Below are positions 8,854-35,576 of a stretch of 64,000 nucleotides of DNA, piece after piece. The notes beneath the pieces are model-generated. The model did not search any database, was not told where the DNA came from, and was given only the letters and a program-made list of their open reading frames with translations. The stretch comes from Fibrobacter sp. UBA4223. Lineage in GTDB: Bacteria > Fibrobacterota > Fibrobacteria > Fibrobacterales > Fibrobacteraceae. Position 1 is the first letter of the stretch. The number at the start of each line of letters is the position of its first letter. Where the stretch lies: the NCBI GenBank assembly GCA_002382975.1, contig DFTB01000006.1, positions 186,001-250,000 of the forward strand. The letters run 5' to 3'. Made by a program: the position numbers and the translations under genes.

Positions 8854-8895
8854 CATGACGGGGAATCGTGCAAACAATTGTTACCAAATTACTAC

Positions 8896-8910
8896 GATTT
8901 TGATAAAATC
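8896..8910. promoter_or_regulatory. Candidate operator 2 of the XRE gene
   Basis: gattttgataaaatc, arms GATTTT/AAAATC around GAT. It lies in the promoter region of the XRE gene. Confidence 0.4.
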
Positions 8911-8929
8911 TTATTTACATTAAGCAAAT

Positions 8930-8952
8930 AGGGAGGGTGAATCACCCTCCCT
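8930..8952. repeat. Perfect 10-bp-arm inverted repeat
   Basis: Arms agggagggtg and caccctccct around a 3-nt AAT loop. No U-run follows on either strand, so it is not a standard terminator. It opens a hairpin-rich stretch that continues to 9378. Confidence 0.6.
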
Positions 8953-9045
8953 AAAACCCTCCCTGCGCTCGAAACCAGTTTCTTCGCGGCCACCTTCGGT
9001 GGCTATGCGAATAGGGAAGGGGTGCCCAAACGTCGATATAAAAAA

Positions 9046-9082
9046 AAGAAAGGGCCGACCGAATGGTCGACCCTTCCTTTTT
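9046..9082 (-). terminator. Terminator behind the partial tRNA-Arg copy
   Basis: gggccgacc / ggtcgaccc around gaat, with A/T runs on both sides. The imperfect pair is a G-U wobble only in the minus-strand RNA, so that is the likely direction. Confidence 0.65.
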
Positions 9083-9111
9083 ATGCGGGTGCCAGGACTC
9101 GAACCTGGAGC
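9079..9111 (-). repeat. Partial copy of the tRNA-Arg 3' end
   Basis: The 28 bases at 9084-9111 are identical to the 3' part of tRNA-Arg (9381-9408): T-arm, acceptor strand and discriminator. The 5' part of a tRNA is missing. The upstream 'cccaaacgtcg.tataaaaaaaag' flank is also duplicated (about 9025 and 9327), so a ~300-bp unit has been duplicated. Confidence 0.75.
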
Positions 9112-9113
9112 AG

Positions 9114-9211
9114 GGTGACGACCGGACTAGCCCAAATTCTCGTATAAAAGGCCGGATTGGCTAGTCCTCTCGCAACCGCCCCAGTTCAATAACTGGGGCT
9201 TTGTTGCTCAC
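9114..9211. repeat. Two-hairpin unit 1 (variable hairpin + constant hairpin)
   Basis: After GGTGACGACC comes a hairpin with arms ggactagcc (9124-9132) and ggctagtcc (9159-9167). A 44-bp constant block (9168-9211) follows, containing gccccagtt/aactggggc nested in gcaac/gttgc. See unit 2 for the variation. Confidence 0.7.
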
Positions 9212-9307
9212 GGTAATGACCGCATCGGCTAAAAGCTAAGACTCTTCTACGGCCAGCCGATGCTCTCGCAACCGCCCCAGTTCAATAACTGGGGCTTTGT
9301 TGCTCAC
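9212..9307. repeat. Two-hairpin unit 2 (variable hairpin + constant hairpin)
   Basis: After GGTAATGACC comes a hairpin whose 9-bp arms are entirely different from unit 1 yet self-complementary: gcatcggct (9222-9230) and agccgatgc (9255-9263). The 44-bp constant block (9264-9307) is identical to that of unit 1. The period is 96 bp. Confidence 0.7.
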
Positions 9308-9342
9308 AAAGGCCCCAGGTTCTCGCCCAAACGTCGGTATAA

Positions 9343-9378
9343 AAAAAAGACCCCTCTCTTACCGAGAGGGGCCTTTTT
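9343..9378 (-). terminator. Terminator of tRNA-Arg
   Basis: cccctctc / gagagggg with A/T runs on both sides, starting 3 bp past the tRNA 3' end. Confidence 0.75.
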
Positions 9379-9380
9379 TA

Positions 9381-9454
<74 letters not shown>

Positions 9455-9464
9455 ATTGGTGCCC

Positions 9465-9494
9465 CAAATATAGCATTATCGGCCTATATGTCAA
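9465..9494 (-). promoter_or_regulatory. tRNA-Arg promoter
   Basis: On the minus strand TTGACA (9489-9494) lies 16 bp ahead of TATATT (9467-9472), and the box extends to TATATTTG (9465-9472). The tRNA 5' end follows 10 bp later. Confidence 0.7.
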
Positions 9495-9526
9495 GGGATT
9501 TTCTTTAAATTTCTTGAAAGAATTAC

Positions 9527-9534
9527 TAAATTTG
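9527..9534 (+). promoter_or_regulatory. TAAATTTG promoter box ahead of the PBP1A gene
   Basis: Fits TAnnTTTG and leaves a leader of about 30 nt before the ATG at 9569. Confidence 0.35.
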
Positions 9535-9568
9535 GGCAAAAGAATCAAGTTCCGCGCAGAAACATAAA

Positions 9569-26997: not shown

Positions 26998-28272
26998 TTA
27001 TTCTTCCCAATAGACGCCACCAGCAGGTGCATTGTAGAGGACTTCATCTGAAGATTCCTTTGATTCGTCGGCACCTTCTTCAGGTTGGACTGGATTTTCG
27101 TCGGGAACGGTTCCCTCAGAGGCTGCCGTTTCCGGAGCCGGGTTGGACTTTTCTTCGGCCTCAACAGAAACATCCTGCTCCACAGTCTCCCCTGCCGGAT
27201 CGACCCGATGTTCTACCGAGGCTGGCTTTTCTGGATGGGAGAACAGGTACGGGCTAATGCTGACGCTCACCCGATGGACCGGAGAGAGCACCGGGTGAGA
27301 TTCAAAGGCGTAGTCCACCCGCAAAAACTTAGCGATGACAAGACCCGCACCTGCGGTTACGCTTTGAAGGGTCGTAAAACTGCTGAGGCCGGCCCTGAGA
27401 GACAGTCCGAAATCAAAGGTGAATTCCACACCGCCGCGACCGCCGGAAAGCCAATCCACCGGATCGTCCCAGAGGCGGCCGCCGCTATCCTCGTCGGTAT
27501 CAAAATCCAGACTGCGGGCTTCGTGATGGAACAGTCCCGCGCTCTGCCAGTACAGTCCCAGTGTTCCATAGAGGTACGAAACCGGAAGGGAGTAACTTGC
27601 CGCTAGGTAAAATTCCGGCGACGAGTATTCCACCTCCCCCGACTCCCAGGTTGTGGCAGAAGAGGTCCAACCCTTCAACAAACCCGACAGGTAGAACTGG
27701 TCCAGCACCCTATACCGAAGGCCCGCATCGCCCCGGAATCCCCAACCGGTCTGGTCCATCTCGCGGTACAGACCATGAAACCCGACACCGATATCAAGTC
27801 GCGGCAAGATACGGCGGCCAAAAGTGACCGAAAACATCCAGTCCGCATAGGACAAGGTATTGTAATCGCTCCCTTCGGGAATGGGTTCTCCTTCACGAAT
27901 ATAGGGGATGTCGTCAGCACCGAATCGAGCAAAGGAAATCCCCAGGCCCTGACCCTCGCCCAAAGGTAATGCCGCCGAAGCAAAATCGTACTGGGTATCT
28001 TCGAAATAAGCCGTATGGGAAAAACTCGCCCAACCATAGCGGATATTGGAAAGCTGGTACGGATTGGAGACAAGTCCCAAATAATCCCCATCCACAGCCA
28101 TAGTGGCAGAACCGAGAGCCGCGGAACGGGCACCGGGTTCTGTGTCCAAGGTCGCATTCGCTCCTGACACGCGATCCATGGCGAACGCCTGAACCCCCAT
28201 CCCGAACAACAGGAGGGTGCTCCATAACCGCAAACAGAAAGATTTGCATTTTCTTTTCAATGCCATTGACAT
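26998..28272 (-). CDS. PorV/PorQ-like outer-membrane protein
   Basis: A 424-residue protein. Signal peptide (to about residue 32, VQAFA). The barrel starts with GARSAALGSATMAVDGDYLGLVSNPYQL, the hallmark of PorV/PorQ (UPF0164-type) proteins, and continues with alternating strands. PorV in Bacteroidota carries T9SS cargo at the outer membrane; this could be a relative, but other PorV-like paralogues have unknown roles. The C-terminal 90 residues are an acidic Glu/Pro/Ala-rich tail not found in PorV. Two in-frame ATGs (28272 and 28266) are possible. Divergent from the Xer gene. Confidence 0.65.
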   Translation of the reverse strand: MSMALKRKCKSFCLRLWSTLLLFGMGVQAFAMDRVSGANATLDTEPGARSAALGSATMAVDGDYLGLVSNPYQLSNIRYGWASFSHTAYFEDTQYDFASAALPLGEGQGLGISFARFGADDIPYIREGEPIPEGSDYNTLSYADWMFSVTFGRRILPRLDIGVGFHGLYREMDQTGWGFRGDAGLRYRVLDQFYLSGLLKGWTSSATTWESGEVEYSSPEFYLAASYSLPVSYLYGTLGLYWQSAGLFHHEARSLDFDTDEDSGGRLWDDPVDWLSGGRGGVEFTFDFGLSLRAGLSSFTTLQSVTAGAGLVIAKFLRVDYAFESHPVLSPVHRVSVSISPYLFSHPEKPASVEHRVDPAGETVEQDVSVEAEEKSNPAPETAASEGTVPDENPVQPEEGADESKESSDEVLYNAPAGGVYWEE

Positions 28273-28319
28273 TTTTACGGAATCAAAATAGATTTTTTCA
28301 TGTCTGCAGATGTAATGAC

Positions 28320-29213
28320 ATGAGCCTTCAAAACCACATATCCAATTTTTTGACCTACCTGGAAACCCGACGCCGGTTTTCTCCTAGAACAATTGACACC
28401 TACCGCAAGAGCCTGGACAAATTCCTAGCACTTGTAGGTGAAGAAGCTCTCCTGGAGTCTTTTTCGGAAATGCAGGTCAAAAGTTTCGTGTGGAATTTGA
28501 AAATGCGGCAAAAGCTTTCCCCCACAAGCATCTGCGAACACCTGGCCGCTCTAAAAAGTTTCGGCAAGTATCTGGTCCGGTCCTCTATTTTGGGAACCAA
28601 CCCGACAGAGAACATCCCCATGCCCAAACGGCCAAAACGCCTGGTGGCGTTCCTCGGACAAAAGGATCTTGCCGAAGAAAAATTTCCCGAAATTGAAAAC
28701 CCGACTCTTCCGCAGGTCCGAGCCCGAGTATTGCTGGAGCTCATCTACGGCTCCGGCCTCCGCATTTCGGAATGCCAAAGTCTCACCTGGGACCGTCTGC
28801 GGGAAAAAGAAAGGTTGGTTCGTGTGCTGGGCAAGGGCAACAAGGAGCGGATTGTGCCCATTACGGACTCCCTTGTGGAACGCCTCGGGCTTTTCAAGGC
28901 CAAGCTGACCGAAGCAGGGCACCTAGTTTCAGCCACAGGATTCGTCTTTGTCAGCGAAGACGGTAAACCTTACAGCATCCGGACGCTCCGAAACGATATA
29001 CAAAGCCTGCTCCGGGACATCGGCTGGGAAGGCAAGGCCAGCCCACACGTGCTGCGGCACAGCTTTGCCACCCACCTGCTGGAAAACGGAGCCGAAATCA
29101 TGAGCGTCAAGGAGATGCTCGGGCATTCCAGCATTTCCACCACACAAATTTACACCCACGTGAACGCGGAACGGCTGAAGCAGGCCTTCAAGAAGACCCA
29201 CCCGAGAGCGTGA
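28320..29213 (+). CDS. Tyrosine recombinase XerC/XerD
   Basis: A 297-residue tyrosine recombinase from the ATG at 28320; an upstream extension of 20 residues is not family-like. The SAM-like core-binding domain (MSLQNHISNFLTYLETRRRFSP) spans 1-100. Catalytic residues are Arg148 (SGLRISE), Lys172 (GKGNKER), His243 and Arg246 (HVLRHSFATHLLENGA), His269 (LGHSS) and the nucleophile Tyr278 (TTQIYTH). Length and the full motif set suit chromosome-dimer resolution at dif together with FtsK (present at 55184). XerC versus XerD cannot be decided. No attachment site or mobile cargo is adjacent, so it is not an integrase of an island here. Confidence 0.93.
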   Translation: MSLQNHISNFLTYLETRRRFSPRTIDTYRKSLDKFLALVGEEALLESFSEMQVKSFVWNLKMRQKLSPTSICEHLAALKSFGKYLVRSSILGTNPTENIPMPKRPKRLVAFLGQKDLAEEKFPEIENPTLPQVRARVLLELIYGSGLRISECQSLTWDRLREKERLVRVLGKGNKERIVPITDSLVERLGLFKAKLTEAGHLVSATGFVFVSEDGKPYSIRTLRNDIQSLLRDIGWEGKASPHVLRHSFATHLLENGAEIMSVKEMLGHSSISTTQIYTHVNAERLKQAFKKTHPRA

Positions 29214-30403: not shown

Positions 30404-30622
30404 TGCGAGCGGTCTTATTCTAGCGCGAACGGTCTTACGTGAGCCGAAACAGTCGATATTAATCGGCTGTGAAGGCGAGAGTGAGCGCAAACCGGAGAGA
30501 CTGTCCCTGATTTTAGCGCGAACGGTCTTACGTGAGCCGGAACAGTCGATATTAATCGGCTGTGAAGGCGAGAGTGAGCGCAAACCGGAGAGACTGTCCC
30601 TGATTTTAGCGCGAACGGTCTT
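30401..30622. repeat. 93-bp tandem direct repeat
   Basis: A 93-bp unit starts at 30421 and 30514, with one base difference noticed (gccgaaac/gccggaac). A third partial copy (16 bp) begins at 30607. The start word 'tagYgcgaRcggtctt' also occurs at 30401. Each unit has a hairpin cagtcgat-atta-atcggctg and a second complementarity cagtc/gactg. It ends exactly against the stop of the dipeptidase gene. Confidence 0.85.
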
Positions 30623-31479: not shown

Positions 31480-33837
31480 CTAGATTCCCAGCTGCACTTC
31501 TACGCCGAACTGCAAGTAAAGTCCCATGCCTTTCGCCATAAAGGGAACCAGGTCGTAACCATCGTTGGAATCGCCGTCGGCATCTCGGGTCACCCAAGAA
31601 CGCTCACGAGCGTTCTCGCTGCCCAAGAACTTAAGAGCGGGCACATCCAGCTTGGCAAAGATGTTGTCCACTTCCAGGTAGAACCGGGCACTCCTGAAGA
31701 AATACTTCGAAGTCATCAGGTCCAGATTCAGGCGCAAGTCGGTGCGGAACAAGTCCGTAAATTCATTCAGGTCCTTGAGCCTGCGTTTGCCGTTGGTGCC
31801 ATCGGCACTGGAAGGTTCAATCTGGTAATAGTACAAGGGCCTGTGCCACAGGGCATGGTGGGTCAATATGACCGAAACCAGGGAATCCTTGCGAGGGTAA
31901 TAGCGGAAATGGGAAACCACGTCCAGGCGGGAGTTCGCCTCCCACGGGAGGGAATTGCCAGAGCCTTCCAGTTCGTATTCGCCATAGACGGAGCTGATAT
32001 TGGTGGACATGGAGAAATGGTGGGATGTTTTCCACTCCATCTTGGCACCGCCGCCAAAGACCCAGGCGAAATCCACGTCGGTCACGTCTTCGTACTGAGC
32101 GTAGGCCTTAGGCATGGGCAGCAGCGGATCCGGATAGTAACGACCAAAACCAGAAGCCTGCACATCCAGGTACTTGGAACGGTAACCGAGACCCAACTTG
32201 GCAGAGGTTCCCGATTCTAGACGGCCCGTCAGGTCGCCCTTGTCGTAGTAGGGTTTCCAGTCGCTGCGGTAGGCGGCGTTTCCGAACAGGCGCCAGTAGG
32301 CGGTATCCGCTCCCGACAAGTTCCGTTCCATGTCCAGCGAGGCCGTAGGAGCGGCCTTGTGGTCCATGGCGTCGGCCACGGCTCCCGCAGAAAGAATGTA
32401 CTGGTAGTAATCCCGCTTCCAGTCCAAACGACCCGTTCCGGAGACAACCCCCGTCTGGTAGTCGTCGGAATGTTCACCGTAATTCAGGTAGTTCCTTTCC
32501 AAAATGTGCTGCTCATATAGGAGGGCGCCGCTGAGTTTGGAGCCCAGAATGTTCCCCTTGAAATTCTTGTCCAGCCCGCCCGAAATGGTAGTGTGGGTAT
32601 AGTCGTAACCGTCAATGAAGGATCGTTGAGCCTGGTCCATATTGACATCCTCGGCAGGAGTCTTGAACCCGGTGGTATCACGCAGGGTATCGCTCAGGTA
32701 TTCCCGGACAAAACCCGCGTGGGCGCTGGTTCCAAAGCGGGAAGCGTATTCCGCCCCCAACACCAGGTAATTCTGCTCACCCGCGATAATATCGATGGAA
32801 TTCACCTCGTCGTAGGCCGTAGAAGTATCTTGCCGGATTTTGTATTCGTCGGAACTGTACAGGGTGCGGATAGCCCAGGTGTTGCCCATGGAATCGGAAC
32901 CGTTCAGCTGGGCGTATATGTCAAAGGCAGTCAGGTCGAAGGGGTCCGAAGACTTGACCCGGCAATCGTTTACACAGTCGCCGTCGCGCTTGCGGAATTC
33001 CGTAAAGAACTTTTCGCCCAGATTCTTGAGCATCTCGCCGTCCAGCCTACGGAAAGCGAAACGGAAACTATCCCAGAAAAGCCAGGGAGCATCCACCACC
33101 ACTTCTTGCACCGTAAGGCCAACGGCCCCCTTAAGCCCCCACTCTCCCTTGGTCTGTTCGGGCAGGTACTGGATAGAAGTGGCAAGGCCCTGGCCGATTG
33201 GGCCCGAACCGTAATGGTCGTGGACTTCAATCCCGCTCAAGATGTGGGGGTTGATTACCGAAAGGTTTCCGGGAAATCCCACATCCAGGTGACGCATGTT
33301 AGGAATCCGGAGCCTGCCCAAGTGGTAAGCCACGTCCCCCGCACGGGAACCGTCGTAGTAAAGAGCACTGCTAAAATCTTTCTGGCCCGAAATACCCGGC
33401 ATCTGGCTCAGGTGTTCCGTCACGTCGAAACGCATGCCCGCCGCATCTTCCAGCTTGTCCACCGAAATAGTACGGACGGGTTCCCACTTCTCAGGTTCTC
33501 CGCCGCCGACGATGGTGCTTGCCCCCAGGTCCCGCAGGTTCGAAGAAAGACTCACCACCATGTCCAGCACATCGGCAAAATCCTGCAGTTCCACAAAGAC
33601 GCTGTCGTAACCGGGTTTCTTGAACACCAGGGCCGCGTTACGGGAATCAACCGTAAACTCGAAACGGCCATCGGAATTAGTGGTCCCCAGTTTCTTGCCG
33701 GACCGGTAAGTCACCTCCACATCGGTAATAGGCAGTTCCGACTCCGAATCCACCACCACACCCACAATGGGCGTTGGCGTCGCGGCAAAAGCGTATGCCG
33801 CAAGCAGGGCCAAAATCCAGAGCCATCTAAAGTTCAT
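31480..33837 (-). CDS. TonB-receptor-like outer-membrane protein with N-terminal CarboxypepD_reg domain
   Basis: A 785-residue protein from the ATG at 33835-33837 (a TTG 9 bp upstream is not needed). Signal peptide (MNFRWLWILALLAAYAFA). A carboxypeptidase-regulatory-like domain (about 22-95: GVVVDSESELPITDVEVTYRSGKKLGTT) precedes a plug-like region (VDKLEDAAGMRFDVTEHLSQMPGI). A long barrel of aromatic strands ends near the C-terminus (GMGLYLQFGVEVQLGI). This order matches SusC/TonB-dependent-type receptors, but no clear TonB box is seen and the plug is shorter than usual. Substrate unknown. Confidence 0.7.
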   Translation of the reverse strand: MNFRWLWILALLAAYAFAATPTPIVGVVVDSESELPITDVEVTYRSGKKLGTTNSDGRFEFTVDSRNAALVFKKPGYDSVFVELQDFADVLDMVVSLSSNLRDLGASTIVGGGEPEKWEPVRTISVDKLEDAAGMRFDVTEHLSQMPGISGQKDFSSALYYDGSRAGDVAYHLGRLRIPNMRHLDVGFPGNLSVINPHILSGIEVHDHYGSGPIGQGLATSIQYLPEQTKGEWGLKGAVGLTVQEVVVDAPWLFWDSFRFAFRRLDGEMLKNLGEKFFTEFRKRDGDCVNDCRVKSSDPFDLTAFDIYAQLNGSDSMGNTWAIRTLYSSDEYKIRQDTSTAYDEVNSIDIIAGEQNYLVLGAEYASRFGTSAHAGFVREYLSDTLRDTTGFKTPAEDVNMDQAQRSFIDGYDYTHTTISGGLDKNFKGNILGSKLSGALLYEQHILERNYLNYGEHSDDYQTGVVSGTGRLDWKRDYYQYILSAGAVADAMDHKAAPTASLDMERNLSGADTAYWRLFGNAAYRSDWKPYYDKGDLTGRLESGTSAKLGLGYRSKYLDVQASGFGRYYPDPLLPMPKAYAQYEDVTDVDFAWVFGGGAKMEWKTSHHFSMSTNISSVYGEYELEGSGNSLPWEANSRLDVVSHFRYYPRKDSLVSVILTHHALWHRPLYYYQIEPSSADGTNGKRRLKDLNEFTDLFRTDLRLNLDLMTSKYFFRSARFYLEVDNIFAKLDVPALKFLGSENARERSWVTRDADGDSNDGYDLVPFMAKGMGLYLQFGVEVQLGI

Positions 33838-33864
33838 AAGACACAATGTAGAAAAAATGCCTTG

Positions 33865-34662
33865 CTATTTGACCAAAATTTGCCGAACCTTTGTCACATT
33901 CCCAACAGAAACACGGACAAGGTACAATCCAGAAGGGATGGACTCAAAACTCACAGAATGATTAAGAGATCTCTTTTTCAAGTTACCCATCATGTCAAAG
34001 ACAAGAATACTGACATCGGAACCTTGTGAATTTACCACCAACATGTTATCCGAAACAACAATTTCAAAGCCTTCGGCAGGCATGGGGTACAATGTCTGCG
34101 TCTCTCGACTTCCCGAACTAGACCCTGCGCCTTTTTCAGAGGAACTAGAAATTACACTTTCCGAATAACTCGACTCAATGTTTTGTGAAGAACTAGATTC
34201 TGCTATTTCCGAAGAACTTGACTCGATATTTTGCGAAGAACTGGATTCTGCTATTTCCGAAGAACTTGACTCAATATTTTGCGAAGAACTGGATTCTGCT
34301 ATTTCCGAAGAACTTGACTCAATATTTTGCGAAGAACTGGACGCATCATCCATAGAACTTGAACTTTCACCATGCAAGCGTTGAACAAGGTGGAGGGTCG
34401 ACTCTTTCCCTATATTGTAATCTGCCAAAGTATGACCATCTTCCAGTTGTTTCCCAGCAAAGATTAGTCGTTGTTCCTCCGGAGGAATGTTCTCCTTTTC
34501 CTGAATTTTCACCTTGACCGCATCTATGGAATCACTAGGTTCCACCTCCAACGTCAAAATTTTTCCCGTCAGCATCTTTACAAAAATTTGCATCGCACAA
34601 ACATTCGTTGCCACTACGAGAATCAACAATGCTGCAATTCTTTTGTAAAACAACCCTTTCAT
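33865..34662 (-). CDS. Exported ubiquitin-like protein with Ser stalk and T9SS-type C-terminal domain
   Basis: A 265-residue protein. The signal peptide (1-23, ending VCA) should be cut right before Met24, which is Met1 of a ubiquitin domain (24-99). By eye 59 of 76 residues match human ubiquitin, including all seven lysines (K6, 11, 27, 29, 33, 48, 63) and the Leu8/Ile44/Val70 patch; Leu71 is Gln, Arg74 is His and Gly76 is Glu, so the end reads RLHGE. A poly-serine stalk (100-186) has 16-residue repeats. The end (191-265) fits a type A T9SS sorting domain (NPMPAEG-like start, [29 protein letters not shown]). GGGAG precedes the ATG. The ubiquitin DNA is about 42% G+C. Origin by transfer from a eukaryote is inferred. 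Confidence 0.95.
34174..34341 (-). repeat. 48-bp tandem repeats encoding the Ser stalk of the ubiquitin gene
   Basis: About 3.5 copies of a 16-codon unit ([16 protein letters not shown]). The near identity at DNA level suggests recent expansion, so stalk length may vary between strains. Confidence 0.85.
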
Positions 34663-34820: not shown

Positions 34821-35576
34821 ATGCGCGTTTATCTCGTACAGATGGAATCCGTTCCGGGAGAAAAAGAAAAGAACTTGGAAAAGGCCAGGCGTATAGTACT
34901 CGAAGCCAAGCCCATACGCGAAAGCCTGATTCTTTTCCCCGAAATGTTTGCCACGGGGTACATTCCTGAACGCGCAGAGGAACTTGCCGAAGATTTACAA
35001 ACGGGCAGCGGTCCAACAGCGCAAATGCTGAGCGGGCTCGCAAAAGAAACAAACTGTTTTATCTTGGGTGGCGGCATGCACCGCGCAGACAACGGCTTTA
35101 CCAACCGCATTTGTCTTTACGGCCCAGCAAAAGCAACAGACAAACAGCTTTACTACGACAAGGTTCACCCCTTCTTTCCGGAGCAAAAAGAATTCACCGC
35201 CGGCAAAGGAGTTACTTTGTTTAAAATTCAAGACCTTGCCCTGGCAACAGCTATCTGCTACGACCTGCGATTCCCCGAAGAGTTCCGAAAAGCTAGAGCC
35301 AACGGCGCTCAAGCCTTTACCGTACAAGCCTCCTGGCCTGCCGTGCGCAACGAACACTGGGAAACACTGCTGCGTGCACGGGCCATCGAAAATCAGGCTT
35401 ATGTTCTTGCGGTGAACAACGTCTCTGCCGACGGCACCTACATCGGAAATTCCCAGGTCATCGCTCCCGACGGAGACATTATCGTAAAGGCAGAAACAAA
35501 AAAAGAACAGGTGGTTTCTGCAGAAATTTCAGCATCTGTTATCGAAAAAATCCGTAAAGAATTTCCCATCTTTTAG
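34821..35576 (+). CDS. Nitrilase-superfamily amidohydrolase (omega-amidase-like)
   Basis: A 251-residue carbon-nitrogen hydrolase. The catalytic triad is Glu41 (LFPEMF), Lys114 (YYDKVHPF) and Cys146 (TAICYDLRFPE). Length and sequence are close to the YafV/Nit2 omega-amidase branch, which repairs alpha-ketoglutaramate and related omega-amides. Single gene. The promoter box is 4 nt from the ATG. A CRP-like palindrome lies 18 bp after the stop. Confidence 0.9.
   Translation: MRVYLVQMESVPGEKEKNLEKARRIVLEAKPIRESLILFPEMFATGYIPERAEELAEDLQTGSGPTAQMLSGLAKETNCFILGGGMHRADNGFTNRICLYGPAKATDKQLYYDKVHPFFPEQKEFTAGKGVTLFKIQDLALATAICYDLRFPEEFRKARANGAQAFTVQASWPAVRNEHWETLLRARAIENQAYVLAVNNVSADGTYIGNSQVIAPDGDIIVKAETKKEQVVSAEISASVIEKIRKEFPIF

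Follow-up and report, generated by a model that had tools for sequence, protein, structure and literature searches.

Textbooks treat ubiquitin as a hallmark of eukaryotes, and the presence of a ubiquitin domain in a bacterial gene raises the questions of whether the domain is genuine, where it came from and what it could do there. The window analysed here (the whole stretch of 64,000 nucleotides from Fibrobacter sp. UBA4223) contains such a gene. The ubiquitin is combined with a sorting tail, is predicted to be sorted to the cell surface and has spread recently within a genus of fibre-degrading gut bacteria. Moreover, the Fibrobacter fusion is one member of a far wider set of proteins with predicted export signals, in which the conjugation end of ubiquitin is mostly lost.

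Anatomy and identity of the ubiquitin fusion

The gene (33865..34662, minus strand) comprises 265 codons plus a stop codon, and we are nearly certain of its division into four parts. A predicted signal peptide (residues 1-23, 34594..34662), called by reading the sequence as a hydrophobic stretch that ends with Val-Cys-Ala (...NVCA) directly before Met1 of ubiquitin, is followed by the ubiquitin domain (residues 24-99, 34366..34593; PF00240, 95.4 bits, E 1.7e-27), a serine-rich linker (residues 100-190, 34093..34365) and a T9SS type A sorting domain (residues 191-265, 33868..34092; TIGR04183, 35.7 bits at a cut-off of 23), all on the minus strand. With the Pfam version of the sorting domain the tail scores 25.0 bits, which is below the cut-off of 27. 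The linker is predicted to be disordered (pLDDT below 50) and contains 3.8 copies of a 48-bp tandem repeat (34158..34341, minus strand). This repeat varies: most of the close relatives have protein lengths of 217, 233, 249, 265 and 281 residues, and these steps of 16 fit a gain or loss of whole 48-bp repeat units.

The preliminary description, made from the letters of the sequence, had taken residues 24-99 for a real ubiquitin, and this is borne out. The domain is identical to human ubiquitin at 59 of 76 positions (78%), the 17 differences being located at positions 7, 12, 13, 22, 24, 25, 28, 32, 35, 39, 40, 54, 57, 62, 71, 74 and 76, and a sequence search matched single ubiquitin chains of the PDB with approximately 116-121 bits. 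A prokaryotic ubiquitin-like fold (ThiS/MoaD) was rejected, since the matches are PF00240 and PDB ubiquitins and no ThiS/MoaD family occurs among the Pfam or NCBIfam matches up to an E-value of 1. The domain is therefore not nearer to ThiS/MoaD than to ubiquitin, an objection that had been named beforehand. In the AlphaFold2 model (34-row alignment; mean pLDDT 65.7, pTM 0.33) the ubiquitin fold and a beta-rich folded tail are both predicted with confidence and are connected by the disordered linker, with block means of the pLDDT of 81-90 for residues 21-90, 69 for residues 91-100 and below 50 for residues 98-196. A comparison of folds with the PDB gave as its 50 best matches what appear to be ubiquitins, variants thereof or ubiquitin-containing constructs with 70-79% identity, so that structure prediction, too, assigns residues 24-99 to the ubiquitin fold. 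The conservation of all seven lysines and of Leu8, Ile44 and Val70, which had also been pointed out, holds for the protein in the window but not for its relatives, in which Lys63, Lys33, Ile44 and Val70 vary.

The domain, the fold and, in the window's protein, the Ile44 face are those of eukaryotic polyubiquitin. Unlike polyubiquitin, the Fibrobacter protein is predicted to be exported, consists of a single unit and possesses neither a Gly-Gly end nor a processing site. Residue 76 is a glutamate and the chain continues beyond it, which excludes conjugation of the protein as encoded; the earlier statement that the normal route of conjugation is closed to it was thus correct.

Export had likewise been proposed, and the signal peptide predicted directly before Met1 agrees with it. 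The export route is further supported by the TIGR04183 tail and by the presence in the same genome of SprA, the outer-membrane pore of the T9SS (TIGR04189, 1120.9 and 227.4 bits in one frame of 2281 aa), and of 28 TIGR04183-type tail matches, among which the tail of the ubiquitin fusion has the lowest E-value. Residues 3-20 of the signal peptide form a helix in the AlphaFold2 model. Since Cys22 is replaced by Phe in one relative (L100 of genome G048), a lipoprotein site is not conserved. A close relative (P0053) is annotated as 'T9SS type A sorting domain-containing protein [Fibrobacter sp.]'. Judged from these features, the protein is predicted to be sorted to the surface of the Fibrobacter cell and displayed there, with the signal cleaved before Met1.

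Directly downstream of the ubiquitin gene lies a receptor-like gene (31480..33846, minus strand; 18-bp gap with a TTG start). Its matches to SusC/RagA (23.8 bits, cut-off 368) and CarboxypepD_reg_2 (29.6 bits, cut-off 32.2) are both below the cut-off, and these weak matches suggest a receptor of the TonB-dependent type. As the two genes are 18 bp apart on the same strand, it is plausible that they are co-transcribed. On the other side lies a divergent nitrilase-family gene (34821..35576, plus strand; PF00795, 159.5 bits). Farther away, about 4.7 kb from the ubiquitin gene, the window contains a gene for a tyrosine recombinase (28260-29213, plus strand; PF00589, 137 bits), which is perhaps a housekeeping Xer protein. 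At positions 30404-30583, translation of the minus strand yields SLRSLSPSQPINIDC.GSRKTVRA.I as a recurring segment, and this points to a short direct repeat in the DNA downstream of the Ham1-family gene.

Carriers, recent spread and origin in Fibrobacter

The window is part of a contig of 366 kb (C2) in an assembly of 2.15 Mb that is 65% complete and 0.08% contaminated. Ten of the 80 genomes of the genus contain PF00240, and across the phylum (167 genomes) the count stays at ten, all in this genus. Among the 40 most complete genomes of the genus (at least 90% complete and at most 5% contaminated) only one is a carrier. Contamination, which had been named as a possible objection, is rejected by the size of the contig with its genus synteny, by the ten carriers and by 48 distinct close proteins among the matches listed. 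The same fusion arrangement is present as an open frame in eight carriers (G000, G016, G022, G043, G048, G049, G074 and G084), is disrupted in G087 and is replaced in G007 by a different ubiquitin fusion. In G087 (L034, contig C142, about 8877-9538) the ubiquitin lies in a different frame from the serine-rich linker and tail.

The receptor-like and the nitrilase gene are the two flanks of an insertion. Among 30 nitrilase loci, which were examined out of 55 matching genomes, the ubiquitin gene is located between the two genes in seven, including that of the window, and in 21 loci the two genes are direct neighbours without it. The remaining two could not be assigned, one being cut by a contig end (L132) and the other having no adjoining receptor gene (L138). 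Eight of the ten carriers share the insertion site if G087, where the contig ends inside the nitrilase gene, is counted; in G007 and G084 the ubiquitin is found elsewhere in the genome.

The divergence of the inserted gene differs strongly from that of its flanks. For six carriers (15 pairs; G048 was left out as too distant, with a ubiquitin dS of 0.88-0.97 to three others), the pooled dS is 0.012 for ubiquitin, 0.038 for the tail and 0.065 for the short signal part, but 0.286 for the nitrilase gene and 0.255 for the receptor-like gene; the pooled dN is, in the same order, 0.020, 0.008, 0, 0.060 and 0.005. The synonymous divergence of the ubiquitin part is therefore approximately 20 times below that of the flanking genes. 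Likewise, G074 is 97-99% identical to the window between 33850 and 34850, and 82-96% identical in the closest bins to the left and right of this stretch. Judged from the low dS in comparison to the flanks and this peak of identity, the gene has moved between species recently. Positive selection on the ubiquitin domain is not claimed: dN exceeds dS, but the number of changes is very small and the comparison of all variable sites given below is not significant. Among plasmid records three matched ubiquitin, one of them strongly, and among phage records there was no ubiquitin match.

The preliminary description had also suggested a transfer from a eukaryote, partly on grounds of base composition. 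This argument fails, since the G+C content of the ubiquitin segment (43.0%; window 52.5%) is matched by an equally low one of the whole gene (41.2%), and low G+C was consequently rejected as evidence of a eukaryotic source. We instead relied on trees, of which three were made; they rest on 72 columns, with few forks resolved and bootstraps that had not settled. In the first tree (91 rows) the window's domain belongs to a set of 16 without any eukaryote (95/93). After addition of 25 eukaryote-type units and removal of the long-branched G084 row, this set also took in units of the polyubiquitin P0072 (88/85, unstarred). The fish polyubiquitin P0060 had two units beside Fibrobacter, on long branches. 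For the third tree, on which we rely, four long-branched rows were dropped (two of P0060, one of P0062 and one of P0197) and the four units nearest to Fibrobacter were added. In this tree, five Fibrobacter rows form a supported set without a eukaryote (97/91) together with the Clostridial loci L040, L041, L042, L052 and L053. Around this set stand more Clostridia, the Fibrobacter locus L100 and metagenomic polyubiquitin units of P0072 (96/80) and P0009 (97/82). A single difference in 72 positions separates one P0072 unit from L050, and likewise from L053.

The nearest named relatives are thus the Clostridial exported ubiquitins of this set and, more distantly, L050, in all of which a signal-like start is followed by ubiquitin. 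L041 shares 62 of 72 positions with the window's domain and 68 of 72 with the allele P0114. The DNA sequences of the Clostridial ubiquitins come just a little closer than those of the others (up to 72%, as against a median of 67%). In contrast to the Fibrobacter fusion, their C-termini are often long surface modules of the Gram-positive type instead of a serine-rich linker and a T9SS tail, and L040 and L052 retain the Gly-Gly that the window's protein has lost. A 'ubiquitin family protein' of Ruminococcus albus 7 (NC_014824.1) is 73.7% identical to the window's domain. It is likely that the ubiquitin passed from a eukaryotic polyubiquitin to gut bacteria and was then exchanged among bacteria as the last step. 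A eukaryote is hence the likely ultimate source, as had been assumed, but the third tree, with Clostridia and no eukaryote in the nearest set, lends no support to a eukaryote as direct donor.

The ubiquitin of G007 (locus L037, a metagenome-assembled genome from horse faeces) stands elsewhere in all three trees. It also begins with a signal-like start followed by ubiquitin, but differs from the window's protein in sharing 68 of 76 positions with human ubiquitin, in an intact LRLRGG, in a GLUG-containing region, in the length of its open frame (741 aa) and in its place in the genome. Because of its separate position in the genome and in the trees it is likely a separate acquisition, and Fibrobacter would then have gained ubiquitin at least twice.

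Putatively exported ubiquitins in other bacteria

The statement that bacteria normally lack ubiquitin proved too strong. A scan of the genome_contigs of bacteria and archaea with five ubiquitin domains of the Fibrobacter type gave at least 590 pattern matches, and at least 378 ubiquitin-encoding loci were confirmed, some of which are, by eye, eukaryotic contigs in metagenome bins. We read the best 80 of these at least 378 loci in detail. According to our own heuristic, 64 of the best 80 possess a signal-peptide-like hydrophobic stretch just before Met1 of ubiquitin, and in 60 of the 80 the -3/-1 rule is met at Met1. Random cuts in the same proteins (11,200) were signal-like in 7.6% and complied with the -3/-1 rule in 1.9%. 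The Gly75-Gly76 end survives in 10 of the 64 loci with signal, against 8 of the 16 without. Among these 16, L044, L046, L047 and L051 look by eye like eukaryotic contigs in metagenome-assembled genomes, whereas L065 fails the heuristic and looks exported by eye. The 64 include the isolates Conexibacter sp. CPCC 206217, Dyella sp. OK004, Sphingomonas canadensis, Ruminococcus albus 8, Loktanella sp. 5RATIMAR09, Pedobacter cryoconitis, Pseudohaliea rubra, Methylolobus aquaticus and Rhodobacter amnigenus.

A module scan covered 67 proteins, namely that of the window, 63 from genome loci (L090 and L104 were left out, L065 was added) and three from viral contigs. It matched 13 proteins to autotransporter barrels, six to GLUG modules, six to Listeria-Bacteroides repeats, three to IPTL-CTERM ends, three to T9SS tails, two to SLH, two to dockerin and two to SdrD_B modules. 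Of the 66 exported relatives, 34 have retained Gly75; 65 extend as far as position 76, and 15 of these have Gly76. Positions 1-72 are eukaryote-like and positions 73-76 are decayed, although these relatives are the best matches of the scan and overall likeness was therefore selected for. In a check independent of the best matches, PF00240 was found in 16 of 396 genomes of the family of R. albus 8, and 12 of the 16 pass the same hydrophobicity threshold, with L180 and L181 being divergent and their domain placement rough. The other four loci in this family are L172 (1.40), apparently exported when judged by eye; L175, where the ubiquitin is internal; L179, which is without signal; and L170, which was not located.

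Some loci deserve mention of their own. The exported ubiquitin gene of R. albus 7 (L157, NC_014824.1, 3853-8273) lies on the plasmid pRUMAL01, which is typed as mobilizable, near a gene with a PI-PLC domain, a dockerin protein and several small exported proteins, and its C-terminal part resembles these neighbours by eye. In an archaeal metagenome-assembled genome (Methanothrix sp., L066), ubiquitin stands between a signal-like start and a long C-terminal region resembling a surface protein. In the putative viral contigs L122, L123 and L124 from IMG/VR, a signal-like start and ubiquitin are followed by an end that is IPTL-CTERM-like by eye.

The best-studied bacterial ubiquitin is the antibacterial BfUbb (PMC5705921, PMC12396204), a secreted protein of Bacteroides fragilis with 63% identity to human ubiquitin (PMC3352274, PMC5705921). 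BfUbb and the Fibrobacter protein have in common that the ubiquitin directly follows a signal sequence and lacks a usable C-terminal glycine, and both genes are patchily distributed among strains and lie in low-G+C regions. BfUbb is a free protein of 76 aa with a C-terminal cysteine; the Fibrobacter ubiquitin differs from it by its 78% identity to the human protein, by ending with glutamate and by its continuation into a repeat linker and a T9SS tail. In the open-licence literature, a search of which does not prove absence, we found BfUbb as the only exported bacterial ubiquitin and no paper on an exported ubiquitin in Fibrobacter or in the wider set described here. One apparent report (PMC8100471) was a false lead concerning a SUMO fusion tag.

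Possible functions of a ubiquitin predicted to be displayed

Our first choice, held tentatively, is that the displayed ubiquitin is a non-covalent, non-conjugatable look-alike that binds ubiquitin-recognising proteins of eukaryotic neighbours. After cleavage of the signal peptide before Met1, the T9SS tail would sort the protein and the ubiquitin would be shown on the cell surface. The Ile44 face would be the working surface, with binding and not conjugation as its function, and the partners would be rumen or hindgut protozoa, fungi or the host. We read the eukaryote-like positions 1-72 together with the decayed positions 73-76 as selection for recognition without attachment, and we count the surface modules of the 67 scanned proteins for display. 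Known ubiquitin-binding proteins are mostly cytosolic, which counts against this reading, as does the free-living nature of some carrier genera in soil or water.

The Ile44 face is of special interest in this regard. We compared its 11 sites with 45 other exposed sites, using for face and core what we take to be the usual site lists. The fixed differences from human ubiquitin avoid the face (0 of 11 against 16 of 45; one-sided Fisher p 0.016, post hoc), and they still do so if sites varying in two or more alleles are added (0 of 11 against 20 of 45, p 0.004, post hoc); we count this avoidance for the look-alike. Once single-allele changes among the matches listed are included as well, the face does not stand out any more (4 of 11 against 21 of 45, p 0.39). 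These changes concern sites 44, 47, 68 and 70, each altered in one of 48 close relatives among the matches listed, and may be errors. As the single-allele count removes the significance of one face test, it makes the look-alike slightly less probable and the antibacterial and passive readings discussed below slightly more so. In G084, changes affect 10 of the 11 face sites, among them L8P, I44F and H68L, and 17 of the 45 other exposed sites (p 0.002); in G048 they affect three of the 11. The single-allele changes, G084 and G048 all count against the look-alike, and an intact Ile44 face is not claimed as a general rule. The concentration of the changes in G084 on the face suggests at the same time that the face matters, and G084 would represent at least one relative with a different or no canonical partner. 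The locus concerned (L036, G084:C14, 6885-7139) encodes an exported ubiquitin with nearly the entire Ile44 face replaced and the stretch TLADYNIQKES intact.

An antibacterial function of the BfUbb kind follows as a close second and is likewise possible. BfUbb is reported to inhibit other strains of B. fragilis, a synthetic 76-aa form being sufficient for this (PMC5705921), and to inhibit ubiquitination in vitro and form a covalent complex with human E1 (PMC3352274). The preliminary description had not taken the antibacterial activity into account. By analogy, the exported ubiquitin would inhibit related bacteria via a protein of their own, and its gene would spread by the competitive edge. The patchy presence of ubiquitin in the genus and its recent spread fit such a weapon equally well and are for this reason counted against the look-alike.

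The diversity of the alleles bears on this question, too. Forty-eight close relatives, the window's protein included, were drawn from the best 120 matches by clusters of 90% identity, and frequencies among them are not population frequencies. Among the matches listed, these 48 proteins have 27 distinct ubiquitin sequences, with Lys63 replaced by Asn in five and Lys33 by Met in four. In the 40 with the common tail, a minor residue present in two or more sequences was found at 10 of 76 ubiquitin sites against 3 of 98 sites of tail plus signal (p 0.018, among the matches listed), which together with the rebuilt face of G084 speaks for an antibacterial role. If all variable sites are considered, ubiquitin (18 of 76) does not differ significantly from tail plus signal (15 of 98; p 0.18, among the matches listed). 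The four-gamete test was failed by 22 of 66 pairs of shared sites among the matches listed, which fits recombination, although metagenome chimeras could also give this result. Further points against an antibacterial role are that the ubiquitin is not free but fused to a linker and sorting tail, with surface modules in many relatives, and that separate bacterial targets would not require a nearly eukaryotic body across phyla. The near-unchanged body in unrelated phyla would be better explained by one shared ubiquitin-recognising partner.

Third, ubiquitin might be only a stable, protease-resistant cap or a folding aid at the tip of surface proteins, without a specific partner. Ubiquitin is a stable fold and a known N-terminal fusion partner, it is the predicted first mature domain in 64 of the best 80 loci and it is joined to many unrelated modules; moreover, with single-allele changes included, the face varies like other exposed sites. 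We nevertheless consider a passive cap unlikely, since it is at odds with fixed differences that avoid the face and with a change in G084 that is concentrated there and not evenly distributed, and it leaves the recent spread within the genus unexplained.

It is highly improbable that extracellular trimming makes the ubiquitin conjugatable or that the bacterium has a ubiquitin conjugation of its own: the LRLRGG kept before the next domain in G007 and the exact Gly-Gly end after a signal-like start in five loci elsewhere (L043, L060, L067, L117 and, by eye only, L065) would suit it, but no trimming of a chain with Glu76 yields Gly-Gly, which largely refutes it for the window's protein, and Lys63 and Lys33 are lost in some alleles among the matches listed. 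A search for the E2 family gave no match in the 80 genomes of the genus, which shows little because the same search was silent in every control genome.

Returning to the look-alike, a more general claim can be formulated, which we put forward as a possibility that is somewhat more doubtful still: many phyla and some archaea may have repeatedly taken up eukaryotic ubiquitin and wear it as the tip of a surface protein, with the signal cut at Met1, the conjugation tail shed, the face kept or retooled and the anchor being the lineage's own. If this were true, ubiquitin would be a general contact ligand of bacteria with eukaryotic (or bacterial) neighbours, and Fibrobacter would be the example of a genus-wide sweep. 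An extracellular partner of the ubiquitin face would add a new layer to the way in which bacteria communicate with their neighbours. The question is open to testing in isolates, among them Ruminococcus albus 7 and 8, Dyella sp. OK004 and Sphingomonas canadensis.

A group of six loci is built differently. In L055, L057, L074, L076, L089 and L101 the ubiquitin is without a clear signal peptide, and after it comes a stretch of about 151 residues that these loci share, starting with TGVVTYQ or similar; four of the six are titled Actinomycetota or Acidimicrobiales and two are titled Bifidobacterium breve MAG, L055 being cut by a contig end.
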